Shown here: in pieces, positions 11,886 through 44,776 of the stretch | Position numbering within the stretch: the stretch's first letter is position 1 | Layout of the letters: each line of letters opens with the position of its first letter | Assembly: GCA_030653695.1 (NCBI GenBank) | Contig: JAURYY010000247.1 | Span: forward strand, 1-45,947 | Source of the DNA: Paludibacter sp. | GTDB lineage: Bacteria; Bacteroidota; Bacteroidia; Bacteroidales; Paludibacteraceae | DNA: 45,947 nucleotides | Direction of reading: 5' to 3' | Position numbers and translations under genes: made by a program | The notes under the pieces: model-generated | Seen by the model: only the letters and a program-made list of their open reading frames with translations | What the model was told of the DNA's origin: nothing | The model's database searches: none

Positions 11886-13139
11886 TTATCTCAACAACAA
11901 TGAACTGTCGCCATAACTCAAAAACCTGAAATCCTTATCCAACGCATAGTCGTAAATTGTCTTCCAATTGCCATTTACAAAAGCCGAAACAAGCAGCATT
12001 AAGGTGCTTTTAGGTTGATGAAAATTCGTTATCATGCCGTTTACCACCCGAAATTTGTACCCTGGTTTAATCATAATTTTTGTATTGGCATGCAAAGTTG
12101 TTTGATTGTTTTTATTCAAATAATCAAGAATGTTTTGCAATGCATCAAAAGCCGAAATTTCAGTATTTGTTTCGTAAGGAGTCCACTGCGAAACATTAAA
12201 TGTTTCAACTTGTATATTAACTGTGTTCTCTCCATCTCTTTTGTATGGTTTTGTGGAAAGGTTTTCACCTATAAAATAAAGCGTTTCGAGGGTTCGCACC
12301 GAAGTTGTTCCAACAGCAATAATATTTCCGATTTTTTTTTGCAGATGTTCAATGGTGCTGCGGTGAACCGAAATAACTTCGCTATGCATTTGATGTAACG
12401 CAATATCGTTTTTTTTCACGGGTTGAAAAGTTCCTGCTCCAACGTGCAGCGTGAGTTCTGCAGTTTCGATATTTCTCAATTCGAGACTTTTAAAAACTTC
12501 GGACGTAAAATGCAATCCGGCTGTGGGAGCAGCTACCGAACCTTTTATTTTTGAATAAACGGTTTGATAAGTAGTCAGATCGCTTTCCTCTGTTTTGCGA
12601 TGCAGATATGGAGGTATAGGCAGTTCGCCTGCTTTTTCGAGTATTTCGGCAAAATGAATGTCTGCATTGTCCCACGTAAACCTTATTGTATGTGTGTTTT
12701 CTTCCGATTCAAGCAATTCGGCATTGAATGTAAAAGTATTATTGTCGATAATTAGCGTTCTGGAAAGAATACCTGTTTTCCATTTTTTCAGATTTCCTAC
12801 CATACATTTCCAAATACACTCGGTAGTAGCGCCCAGCGATAATGCATAATCCGAAGGCGTGAGCGGCTCTAAACAAAACACTTCGATATGCGATCCGGTG
12901 GTTTTCCGGAAAATTAAGCGAGCCTGAATGACTCGGGTGTTATTATACACCAATAAACAATTTTCGGGTAAATAGGATGCAATATTCGAAAAAACGGTCT
13001 CAGATATTGTTCCATCTTTGTAAATCAGTAATTTGGATGCATCCCGTTGGGTTAATGGGTATTTGGCTATTCGTTCATCGGGCAACGGATAATTGTAATC
13101 TTCGATGTAAATCGGAGTGTTTTCGGAGATAGTATTCAC
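11886..13139 (-). CDS. queA: S-adenosylmethionine:tRNA ribosyltransferase-isomerase-like
   Basis: QueA moves the ribosyl part of SAM onto preQ1 at the tRNA wobble position to make epoxyqueuosine. Family motifs are present: YPLPDERIAKYPL with RDASKLL near the start, LVYNNTRVIQARL, GSVAAPTAGLHFT, LHVGAGTFQPV, and FHQPKSTLMLLVSAF with YALDKDFRFLSYGDSSLL at the end. I start it at a GTG at 13139 (417 residues, beginning MNTISENTPIYI). An ATG at 13229 would lie upstream of a well-formed promoter (13169-13199) and add junk sequence. At about 417 residues it is longer than E. coli QueA (356) and matches the longer Bacteroidota type, so it may be a QueA-like paralog rather than the sole QueA. Confidence 0.9.
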   Translation of the reverse strand: MNTISENTPIYIEDYNYPLPDERIAKYPLTQRDASKLLIYKDGTISETVFSNIASYLPENCLLVYNNTRVIQARLIFRKTTGSHIEVFCLEPLTPSDYALSLGATTECIWKCMVGNLKKWKTGILSRTLIIDNNTFTFNAELLESEENTHTIRFTWDNADIHFAEILEKAGELPIPPYLHRKTEESDLTTYQTVYSKIKGSVAAPTAGLHFTSEVFKSLELRNIETAELTLHVGAGTFQPVKKNDIALHQMHSEVISVHRSTIEHLQKKIGNIIAVGTTSVRTLETLYFIGENLSTKPYKRDGENTVNIQVETFNVSQWTPYETNTEISAFDALQNILDYLNKNNQTTLHANTKIMIKPGYKFRVVNGMITNFHQPKSTLMLLVSAFVNGNWKTIYDYALDKDFRFLSYGDSSLLLR

Positions 13140-13168: not shown

Positions 13169-13199
13169 CAAAAGTAGTAAATAGGAAACGAGTTGACAA
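13169..13199 (-). promoter_or_regulatory. Promoter of the queA-like gene
   Basis: On the minus strand TTG (13197-13199), 20 bases, then TACTTTTG (13169-13176), a full match to the Bacteroidota consensus. The same TACTTTTGCACAA string is found at the guaA promoter. It lies downstream of the ATG at 13229 and so supports the GTG start at 13139. Confidence 0.65.
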
Positions 13200-13226
13200 G
13201 TGGACAAGGAAACGAGTAGAATAGAA

Positions 13227-13246
13227 CAAGGGGGCATGCCCCCTTG
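13227..13246. repeat. 20-bp perfect palindrome 17 bp before a start codon
   Basis: CAAGGGGGCATGCCCCCTTG is its own reverse complement. It ends 17 bases before the ATG of the DUF2027-Smr gene. A near-identical palindrome with the same spacing lies at 43573-43592. Confidence 0.9.
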
Positions 13247-13263: not shown

Positions 13264-14343
13264 ATGATAAAAAAAGGTGATACTGTGCGTTTTCTGAACG
13301 CTGTAGGTGGCGGAGTTGTAACCCGCGTGGATGAAATAAAAAAAATGTTGTACGTTGAAGATGCCGATGGATTTGAGATTCCGGTGTTGGAAAAGGAATG
13401 TGTAATGGTTGGTGCTGTAAATAAAGAAACAAATTTTCCGAAAAGAGATTTCTCCTCAAAAACGGAACATACTGTTGCTGAAAAACAAATTGTAGAAGTT
13501 GATACAAAAAAACCGGAACAAGAAACCCGAAGTTACGAACAAATAATTGAAACCGTTGAAGGCGAAACTTTAAAGGCATTTCTGGCTTTTTTTCCGCAAG
13601 ATATTAAACAGTTACAAACAACTTCGTACGATTGTTATTTAGTAAACGACAGTAATTATTTTCTGTATTACAATATTATATATGGTGAAAATAATAACCG
13701 GAAGAGTTTATCTAACGGCTTAATTGAGCCCAATATGCAGGAAGAAATTACCCAAATATCAAAAGACGAGCTGAATTCATGGGAAAACTTGCGGGTACAA
13801 ATTATTCCTTTCAAAAAAAATAAAATTTATACGCCTCAAAATGTGCTGGATGTTCAACTTAAAATTAACGTTGTAAAGTTCTACAAGTTGCACAGTTTTA
13901 CCGAAAACGATTATTTCGACGATTTAGCAATGATAATTGATATAGTTTCGGAAAAGGAAAATCAAAAATTAGCCGATATTTCGCCCCTTGAAATTAAAAA
14001 CGCCATGTTGCACAAAGAAGAAATAAAGCGACCAAGAATTACTTTACGTCAGCAGGTACCCGATGTGATTGAAGTGGATCTGCACATCAACGAATTGGTT
14101 GATACTACAGCAGGTATGGGAAATGCAGATATGCTACAATTGCAGTTGACTAAATTTCATGCCGTACTCAACGAAAATAAATCGAGGAAGGGGCAAAAAA
14201 TAGTATTTATACATGGCAAAGGAGAAGGTGTGCTTCGCAATGAAATTGAAAAACTGCTTAAATCGCGTTATAAAACGTATTATTTTCAGGATGCTTCGTT
14301 CAGGGAATATGGATTTGGTGCTACAATGGTGACGATAAAGTAA
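13264..14343 (+). CDS. DUF2027 and Smr domain protein
   Basis: A 359-residue cytoplasmic protein. Residues 1-50 (KKGDTVRFLNAVGGGVVTRV) form a small barrel-like start, followed by the DUF2027 region to about residue 260 and a C-terminal Smr domain (about 270-358). The Smr signatures are VDLHI, the HGKGEG loop at VFIHGKGEGVLRNEI, and a final GATMVTIK strand. Smr domains bind or cut branched nucleic acids in MutS2, but in this family the substrate is unknown. It diverges from queA across 124 bases that contain a queA promoter and a perfect palindrome. No partner gene is evident in the same direction. Confidence 0.88.
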   Translation: MIKKGDTVRFLNAVGGGVVTRVDEIKKMLYVEDADGFEIPVLEKECVMVGAVNKETNFPKRDFSSKTEHTVAEKQIVEVDTKKPEQETRSYEQIIETVEGETLKAFLAFFPQDIKQLQTTSYDCYLVNDSNYFLYYNIIYGENNNRKSLSNGLIEPNMQEEITQISKDELNSWENLRVQIIPFKKNKIYTPQNVLDVQLKINVVKFYKLHSFTENDYFDDLAMIIDIVSEKENQKLADISPLEIKNAMLHKEEIKRPRITLRQQVPDVIEVDLHINELVDTTAGMGNADMLQLQLTKFHAVLNENKSRKGQKIVFIHGKGEGVLRNEIEKLLKSRYKTYYFQDASFREYGFGATMVTIK

Positions 14344-43572: not shown

Positions 43573-43592
43573 CAATGGGGCATGCCCCATTG
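43573..43592. repeat. 20-bp perfect palindrome 17 bp before a start codon, second copy
   Basis: CAATGGGGCATGCCCCATTG is its own reverse complement and shares the GGGGCATGCCCC core with the palindrome at 13227-13246. It ends 17 bases before the alcohol dehydrogenase ATG. Confidence 0.9.
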
Positions 43593-43609: not shown

Positions 43610-44776
43610 ATGAACAACTTTAATTTTTATAGTCCTACATTTTTCGTTTTCGGAAAAGAGCGCGAGAATGAAACAGGAAAACTCGTGAAACGCTTCGGTG
43701 GAACAAAAGTGTTAATTCACTATGGAAGTGGGTCGGTAGTGAAAAGCGGTTTGCTCGATCGTGTTAAAAAATCGCTTTCAGATGCTGGTATTTGGTTTGC
43801 CGAATTAGGCGGGGTAGTTCCAAATCCGCGCAGTGGTTTAGTGTACAAAGGAATAGAAATTAGCAAAAATGAAAATATTGATTTTATTCTCGCTGTTGGC
43901 GGTGGAAGTGTTATCGATTCGGCCAAAGCCATTGCACTTGGTACACTTTACGACGGGGATTTCTGGGATTTTTACTGCGGAAAGCGCATTGAAAAAGCGT
44001 TACCCGTAGGTACAATACTTACGCTTACCGCTGCCGGAAGCGAAGGGTCGATGGGAACAGTGATCACCCATGAAAATGGCATGCTCAAACGTGCAGCCAA
44101 TCACGATGTGTTGCGACCGGCTTTTTCTATACTTAATCCCGAATTAACCTGCCCGTTACCACCTTATCAAACCGCTTGCGGTGCTGTTGATATGATGGCG
44201 CACGTGATGGAGCGTTATTTTACCAATACACAAAATGTGGAAATTACCGACCGGCTGTGCGAAGGAATTCTGCTGTCAATTATCAACGAAGCCCCCAAAG
44301 TCATGTCCAATCCGGATGATTATGATGCGCGTGCCAATCTGATGTGGGCGGGTATGGTGGCGCATAACGATACCTGTGGCGTAGGACGCGAAAGCGACTG
44401 GGCGAGCCACCAAATGGAACACGAACTTTCGGGATTGTACGATGTGGCACACGGAGCCGGATTGGCGGTTATGTTTCCGGCATGGATGAAATATGTATTG
44501 CAGCAGGATGTTATGCGTTTTGCCCAATTCGCGGTGCGTGTGTGGGGTTGCGAAATGGATTTTCAGAACCCCGAAAAAACAGCACTGCAAGGTATTGAGC
44601 GATATGAACAATTTGTAAGTTCACTCGGAATGCCGATTCGCTTTGCCCAACTTGGTGCGAAAGCCGAAGATATACCCACCTTGGTAAAAACTGCCGGATT
44701 GGGCGAAAACACTATGGGTAGTTTTGTGAAATTGACTGAAGAGGATATCAGGAAAATTTATGAATTGGCAGTTTAA
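43610..44776 (+). CDS. Iron-containing alcohol dehydrogenase, YqhD/butanol dehydrogenase type
   Basis: A 388-residue group III alcohol dehydrogenase. The nucleotide-binding region has VGGGSVIDSAKAIA near residue 100. The metal ligands lie in the segments CGAVDMMAHVMERYF (Asp and His), SHQMEHELSGLYDVAHGAGLAVMFPAWM (two His). The start NFNFYSPTFFVFGKERENE is typical of the YqhD/BdhA group, which reduces short-chain aldehydes with NADPH. Likely roles are aldehyde detoxification or fermentative reduction. It is preceded by a perfect palindrome with fixed spacing, and no partner gene follows. Confidence 0.94.
   Translation: MNNFNFYSPTFFVFGKERENETGKLVKRFGGTKVLIHYGSGSVVKSGLLDRVKKSLSDAGIWFAELGGVVPNPRSGLVYKGIEISKNENIDFILAVGGGSVIDSAKAIALGTLYDGDFWDFYCGKRIEKALPVGTILTLTAAGSEGSMGTVITHENGMLKRAANHDVLRPAFSILNPELTCPLPPYQTACGAVDMMAHVMERYFTNTQNVEITDRLCEGILLSIINEAPKVMSNPDDYDARANLMWAGMVAHNDTCGVGRESDWASHQMEHELSGLYDVAHGAGLAVMFPAWMKYVLQQDVMRFAQFAVRVWGCEMDFQNPEKTALQGIERYEQFVSSLGMPIRFAQLGAKAEDIPTLVKTAGLGENTMGSFVKLTEEDIRKIYELAV

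Follow-up and report, generated by a model that had tools for sequence, protein, structure and literature searches.

We analysed a 45,947-nucleotide stretch of DNA from Paludibacter sp. (contig JAURYY010000247.1 of assembly GCA_030653695.1), hereafter the window. It contains two perfect 20-bp palindromes. One, CAAGGGGGCATGCCCCCTTG (13227..13246, unstranded), lies in the 124-bp gap between a queA-like gene for queuosine biosynthesis (11886..13139, minus strand, with its probable start at ~13139, the edge of the gap) and a DUF2027-Smr gene (13264..14343, plus strand). The other, CAATGGGGCATGCCCCATTG (43573..43592, plus strand, in the flanking context ...CCGA[palindrome]CTAA), lies between a DUF4954 gene on its left and an Fe-containing alcohol dehydrogenase gene (43610..44776, plus strand). 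The ATG codons at 13264 and 43610 each follow their palindrome by 17 nt. An earlier note, made from the letters of this DNA alone, had described both palindromes and this spacing, and its two gene identities agree with our assignments (DUF2027 plus Smr domains; iron-containing alcohol dehydrogenase). As single-stranded DNA, each palindrome was predicted by folding to form a stable hairpin with an 8-bp stem and a 4-nt CATG loop. An Rfam scan found no match at the palindromes, and its sole match in the window was a tRNA elsewhere. At window scale the count of the core is just mildly above chance: allowing up to two mismatches there are two matches, both exact, against 0.5 expected, and 7 of 100 shuffled sequences also reach two.

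The source assembly (G000; 3.69 Mb in 383 contigs) gives a clearer picture. The genome-wide count that the earlier note had proposed returned 38 sites of the core GGGGCATGCCCC against none for the reversed-pattern control, far above chance. We took all 38 sites with their flanks and aligned the 37 whose flanks were complete. The family has the REP-like form (A)CAAGGGG-N6-CCCCTTG(T), with centres that are mostly palindromic themselves (GCATGC, ATTAAT, TTTAAA, ACATGT and others). Class A, (A)CAAGGGGGCATGCCCCCTTG(T), comprises 24 of the 37 aligned sites and has no other strongly conserved flank. Class B, CAATGGGGCATGCCCCATTG, comprises 10 and can be written CAATGGGG...CCCCATTG with asymmetric flanks: CCAA usually precedes the palindrome, C occupies position -8 in all 10 sites and CTA follows the palindrome in nine. 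The window carries one site of each class, and the flanking difference between its palindromes (AAG/CTT against AAT/ATT), which had been described as compensatory, marks these two classes. The palindrome is free of stop codons in every frame. The GT[AG]G foot was found directly at the stem in 1 of 248 flanks and within 8 nt in 9 of 248; class B has CTA/TAG on one side in its place. Intergenic positions account for 29 of the 38 sites, compared with 16% expected from a coding fraction of ~84% in the sampled DNA (p = 6e-16). Purine-rich, word-like text such as GAAACAAGTAGACGGCAGCAAG and GAAACGAGTAGAA was repeatedly seen beside class A copies (L018, L021, L045 and window positions 13180-13226).

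An exact scan of GTDB species genomes found the class A 20-mer in at least 110 stretches. Among the matches listed are Bacteroidales, Chitinophagaceae, Ignavibacteria, Kapaibacterium, Beta- and Gammaproteobacteria, a Myxococcales metagenome-assembled genome (MAG), the clostridium Petroclostridium and the archaeon Methanoregula, and the flanks are unrelated between most of these taxa. Many of these genomes are MAGs, so single taxon assignments may be binning errors; the genome of Petroclostridium sp. X23 is complete.

A candidate enzyme was found among the seven Y1_Tnp matches in G000. The weakest match lies between two palindromes on contig C320, in a frame that encodes an Eco57I-type (type IIG-like) restriction-modification (R-M) methylase. 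The Y1 domain is inserted in frame between the SAM-binding motif DPACGSGAF and GGFDVVIGNPPY, just before the NPPY motif. One palindrome of this gene lies within the domain; of two others, both close to the 5′ end of the frame, one is perfect and the other imperfect. The 5′ side of the frame is cut by the contig end, which we count against a mobile REP-like element. The earlier note had offered such an element as its alternative and suggested a search for a RAYT-type transposase; that alternative is supported, except that the RAYT-type domain lies within an R-M gene and is not a free-standing RAYT. We had initially expected a RAYT with a gene of its own, an idea abandoned once the C320 match turned out to sit within the methylase frame. 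The six other Y1 genes of G000 (L048-L053) were rejected as the cognate enzyme, as no GGGCATGCCC lies nearby.

We searched the C320 gene in the 80 public loci listed by the 20-mer scan, which had been drawn by the 20-mer alone. This recovered 10 substantial RAYT matches and two fragments, always at the same methylase position and with the palindrome nearly always inside the RAYT coding sequence. The fused R-M proteins are ~1100-1350 aa long, and the only stand-alone relatives are L212 and L218. In the alignment the DH-H (HUH), W and Tyr residues are invariant (DH[LMIV]H / W[TA]Q / YI-NNR), and the stretch encoded by the palindrome occupies a single position between HUH and Tyr. The Pfam Y1_Tnp match is above its cut-off; the best NCBIfam family, REP_Tyr_transpos (NF047646), scores 42-55 bits, below the curated cut-off of 80 bits. 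AlphaFold (AF2) models of moderate confidence (mean pLDDT 73 and 70) predict an HUH fold with the palindrome peptide in a disordered loop. The top Foldseek matches of the domain are IS608 and ISDra2 TnpA and the E. coli RAYT (4er8), and the whole region matches the BrxX, CamA and TaqI methylases. The inserted domain is of the RAYT-type HUH/Y1 transposase kind, has intact catalytic residues and is the likely cognate enzyme of the palindrome.

The palindrome inside this loop is read as TRGHAPL in most proteins and, in another frame, as QQGGMPPC or EQGGMPPC in L158 and L212; it is therefore the DNA, rather than the peptide, that is conserved. RAYT inserts that lack the GCATGC core carry a loop palindrome with the same stem and a TTTAAA, ATTAAT (twice) or ACATGT centre, the last as three tandem copies in a gammaproteobacterial MAG. 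The L218 loop has a palindrome with a variant stem, and the L217 loop differs (CAGCGGGTCATGACCCGCTG). In G248 the centre is TTTAAA in the RAYT and also in the two other copies, which lie on the same contig on both sides of the RAYT. Centres are mixed in G359 and G362, so the matching of centres between a RAYT and its dispersed copies is not strict. In an Ignavibacteria MAG (L212), GAACAAGGGGGCATGCCCCCTTGTTC lies before, within and after the gene of a 185-aa stand-alone relative, which makes this locus a REPtron.

We assessed the association of the palindrome with the fusion in 295 evenly drawn genomes of the class, taking E below 1e-40 as a strong RAYT-insert match. Five genomes had such a match (G000, G282, G248, G194 and G162); three additional matches (E ~1e-11 to 1e-13) belong to different Y1 proteins, which are short. 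The pattern CAAGGGGN6CCCCTTG was present in all five fusion genomes and in none of the other 290 (p = 5.6e-11). Copies outside the RAYT gene provide the fair comparison because the gene itself contains a copy, and these were found in three of the five fusion genomes and none of the 290 (p = 2.4e-6). The fusion or a relative was present in 17 of 44 genomes drawn by the 20-mer, and in 9 of 36 of those drawn through a locus without it, compared with 7 of 294 in the class.

We consider it about 80% probable that a REP-like mobile hairpin, dispersed in many copies, accounts for the palindromes and that the likely enzyme is the RAYT-type domain inside the Eco57I-type R-M methylase. On this reading, the pair in the window are intergenic insertions of the ordinary sort. 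The single-stranded palindrome would fold into its hairpin, which the HUH tyrosine domain would probably nick and then move or copy as single-stranded DNA. Copies would accumulate between genes and, given the lack of stop codons in any frame, also in flexible protein linkers, above all those of R-M enzymes. The data show the repeat family and its spread, the architecture and intact catalytic residues of the enzyme, and the association between the two; cutting and movement of the hairpin, like any influence on nearby genes, are inferred. Several observations count against a mobile REP. In two of the five co-occurring genomes the palindrome is found in the RAYT gene only, and no clean empty site was found for the window copies. 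Copies also exist in genomes without the fusion, namely Betaproteobacteria, Methanoregula and the congener G004 (10 copies); loss, incomplete assembly or another enzyme could account for these.

The earlier note had favoured a translation-control hairpin or an operator, which we took as a transcription-factor operator, placed at a fixed 17 nt before start codons. The two window copies at 17 nt, one further copy at 16 and one at 7, together with the stable hairpin in both window copies, are what such a signal would have. The genome-wide distances point elsewhere: the nearest start codons of 26 intergenic copies lie at 7, 16, 17, 17, 46, 60 ... 522 nt, with 22 of the 26 at 46-522 nt; the 17-nt spacing does not extend to the 38-member family. 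Many copies follow stop codons or lie between convergent genes or within genes, and the genes that flank them are unrelated. In the sister species and closest congener, G053, the gap orthologous to the 13227 site holds a decayed copy, CAAAGGGGCATGCTCCCTTG, at a distance of ~32 nt to the ATG, and no palindrome is present in that gap in six other congeners. Because the distances vary genome-wide and the sister-species spacing differs, we rejected a fixed 17-nt spacing, take the equal spacing in the window as coincidence, regard the DUF2027-Smr and alcohol dehydrogenase genes as bystanders and consider a control element of this kind highly improbable. Hairpins maintained for the host as transcription terminators or mRNA stabilisers are another reading: 10 of the 28 intergenic copies with a measurable distance (about one third) lie 0-21 nt past a stop codon, and a terminator/promoter scan, uninformative on the whole, reported a terminator-like match on the minus strand at 13246-13227. 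However, the U-tract is not consistent, and copies also occur upstream of divergent genes and within coding sequence. The palindrome is moreover absent from most of the class and is therefore not a general terminator; we regard this explanation as improbable.

It is also conceivable, although we think it unlikely, that another transposase moves the repeats and that the R-M-embedded RAYT is just a frequent landing site. G000 has six other Y1 transposases, copies occur in R-M genes without a RAYT, and the Betaproteobacteria have copies without the fusion. On the other hand, co-occurrence across the 295 genomes is perfect, the loop position is conserved while its centres change and yet stay palindromic, and the REPtron surrounds a stand-alone relative. 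In addition, no palindrome was found within ~1.5 kb of any of the other Y1 loci taken from fusion-negative genomes.

R-M genes recur as hosts of in-gene copies. In G000 the clear cases are the fusion (two perfect copies), a second type IIG-like enzyme and a type I-like restriction subunit; a further copy lies at the C-terminal end of a PLP enzyme. Across the 80 loci listed, a copy was found in 20 long frames, of which 14 are DNA methylase or R-M genes, two are SpoIIE-type phosphatases (both from one genome) and four lack a Pfam match. Of the 14 methylase/R-M hosts, 10 contain either the RAYT insert or part of that same gene, and the host bias is to this extent the same fact as the fusion. The divergence of the RAYT insert correlates with that of the methylase N part (r = 0.81, p = 2e-4; main clade r = 0.47, p = 6e-4) and has r = 0.16 with the C part. 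The insert and the N part have thus diverged together, so the insert has long resided in these enzymes, or at the least alongside their catalytic N half.

Other RAYT lineages were also found in frame in R-M proteins, of MmeI type (L240, L245) and type ISP (L230). These are canonical RAYTs (L240:241-3168, L245:1-2343, L230:862-2808), accompanied by repeated linker peptides (GDAGVSPA..., SPQLQGRHQQHLRDADD) that, judged from their sequence, look to be encoded by other REP families. The fused R-M protein of L136 also contains a CTERSRS stretch, which in other Bacteroidota proteins we take to be the product of another palindromic repeat. We suggest, tentatively and with somewhat more doubt than conviction, that R-M enzymes are regular carriers of HUH transposases and that several RAYT lineages entered them in frame: before NPPY in the Eco57I type, on either side of the target-recognition domain in the MmeI type, and in type ISP. 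Such a fusion may serve both partners: through the R-M gene the transposase would spread horizontally and resist being lost, and the palindromes that it supplies would diversify R-M linkers.

The closest described system is TnpAREP subclass 2.4 (RAYT group 4), for which Quentin et al. 2018 (PMC6006769) described in-frame REPs located between HuH and Y. Both systems have an HUH-Tyr transposase, dispersed and mostly intergenic copies, and in-frame repeats between HuH and Tyr in the transposase gene; as in REP/RAYT pairs generally, the RAYT gene can be flanked by its repeats (L212; G248, with copies on both sides). They differ in that subclass 2.4 proteins stand alone (~194 aa), whereas here the domain is embedded in an R-M methylase, and in their motifs (NH[IFV]H / WQ / YIxNNP in subclass 2.4). 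The repeat itself is a perfect palindrome without the GT[AG]G foot, the usual RAYT guide; this counts against a mobile REP, and although the system looks to be built like a REP/RAYT pair, strict REP membership lacks one defining feature. Perfect palindromes have been reported for one REP group (Corneloup et al. 2021, PMC8266576). GTAG and CGTC REPs are likewise 20-40 bp palindromes, intergenic, often after coding regions and sometimes intragenic, including in repair genes (Di Nocera et al. 2013, PMC3733652). Neither tag is present here, and their intragenic hosts are noted as replication and repair genes whereas ours are mostly R-M genes; the word "restriction" is absent from the text of that paper (PMC3733652). 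Rickettsia palindromic elements (RPE) also lie in frame in coding genes, but RPE-1 is longer and RPE-4/6 are CGTC repeats without a dedicated transposase (PMC3733652), whereas here a transposase is associated and the hosts are mainly R-M genes. The methylase domains and fold resemble those of Eco57I/MmeI/BsaXI-type R-M enzymes, BREX PglX/BrxX and CamA; the annotations of the solved matches record no inserted HUH transposase domain.

A literature search, with subscription papers mostly outside it, returned no report of a RAYT or HUH domain in an R-M enzyme or of this palindrome, and the sole match to the core string was in unrelated mitogenome work. REPs inside RAYT genes are already known, while a RAYT embedded in an R-M gene, a foot that lacks GTAG and the R-M bias of in-gene copies appear to be undescribed. 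The combination is one that filters on length have removed; Quentin et al. 2018 (PMC6006769) excluded unexpectedly long proteins, which they regarded as annotation errors or fusions. The findings connect a short unexplained palindrome, identical across bacterial phyla and an archaeon, with a probable enzyme, so that the mobility of the palindrome can be tested directly. They also account for the recurring odd peptides TRGHAPLS, NKGACPLV and QQGGMPPC in predicted proteins. R-M methylases and the transposase domain have travelled together. Should the domain be active, R-M enzymes would carry within themselves a source of in-frame insertions, and a selfish repeat would share in the ability of R-M genes to spread horizontally.

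Several further repeats were seen in these genomes. G364 has 141 copies of the palindrome, mostly with the ATTAAT centre, on many contigs at bases 64-83; this common offset from the contig starts indicates that the palindrome probably lies within a longer, assembly-breaking repeat. In betaproteobacterial MAG loci (L083, L090, L092, L094, L098, L104, L105) the palindrome frequently belongs to a larger unit, approximately CCCTCTGAAGTGGGGGATAT-ACAAGGGGGCATGCCCCCTTGT-TCAGTGAAT; the RAYT insert was looked for in these MAGs and none was found. In G000, the IS200-like gene at L048:1300-1960 (contig C308) has AGCTCCGTAGGAGC and GCCTCTAAGAGGC palindromes on its flanks, which form a further REP-like family of that genome. 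The congener G013 has 15 copies of CCCCGTACGGGG, which is the reversed control and is itself palindromic; these copies perhaps represent a different, species-specific palindrome family.
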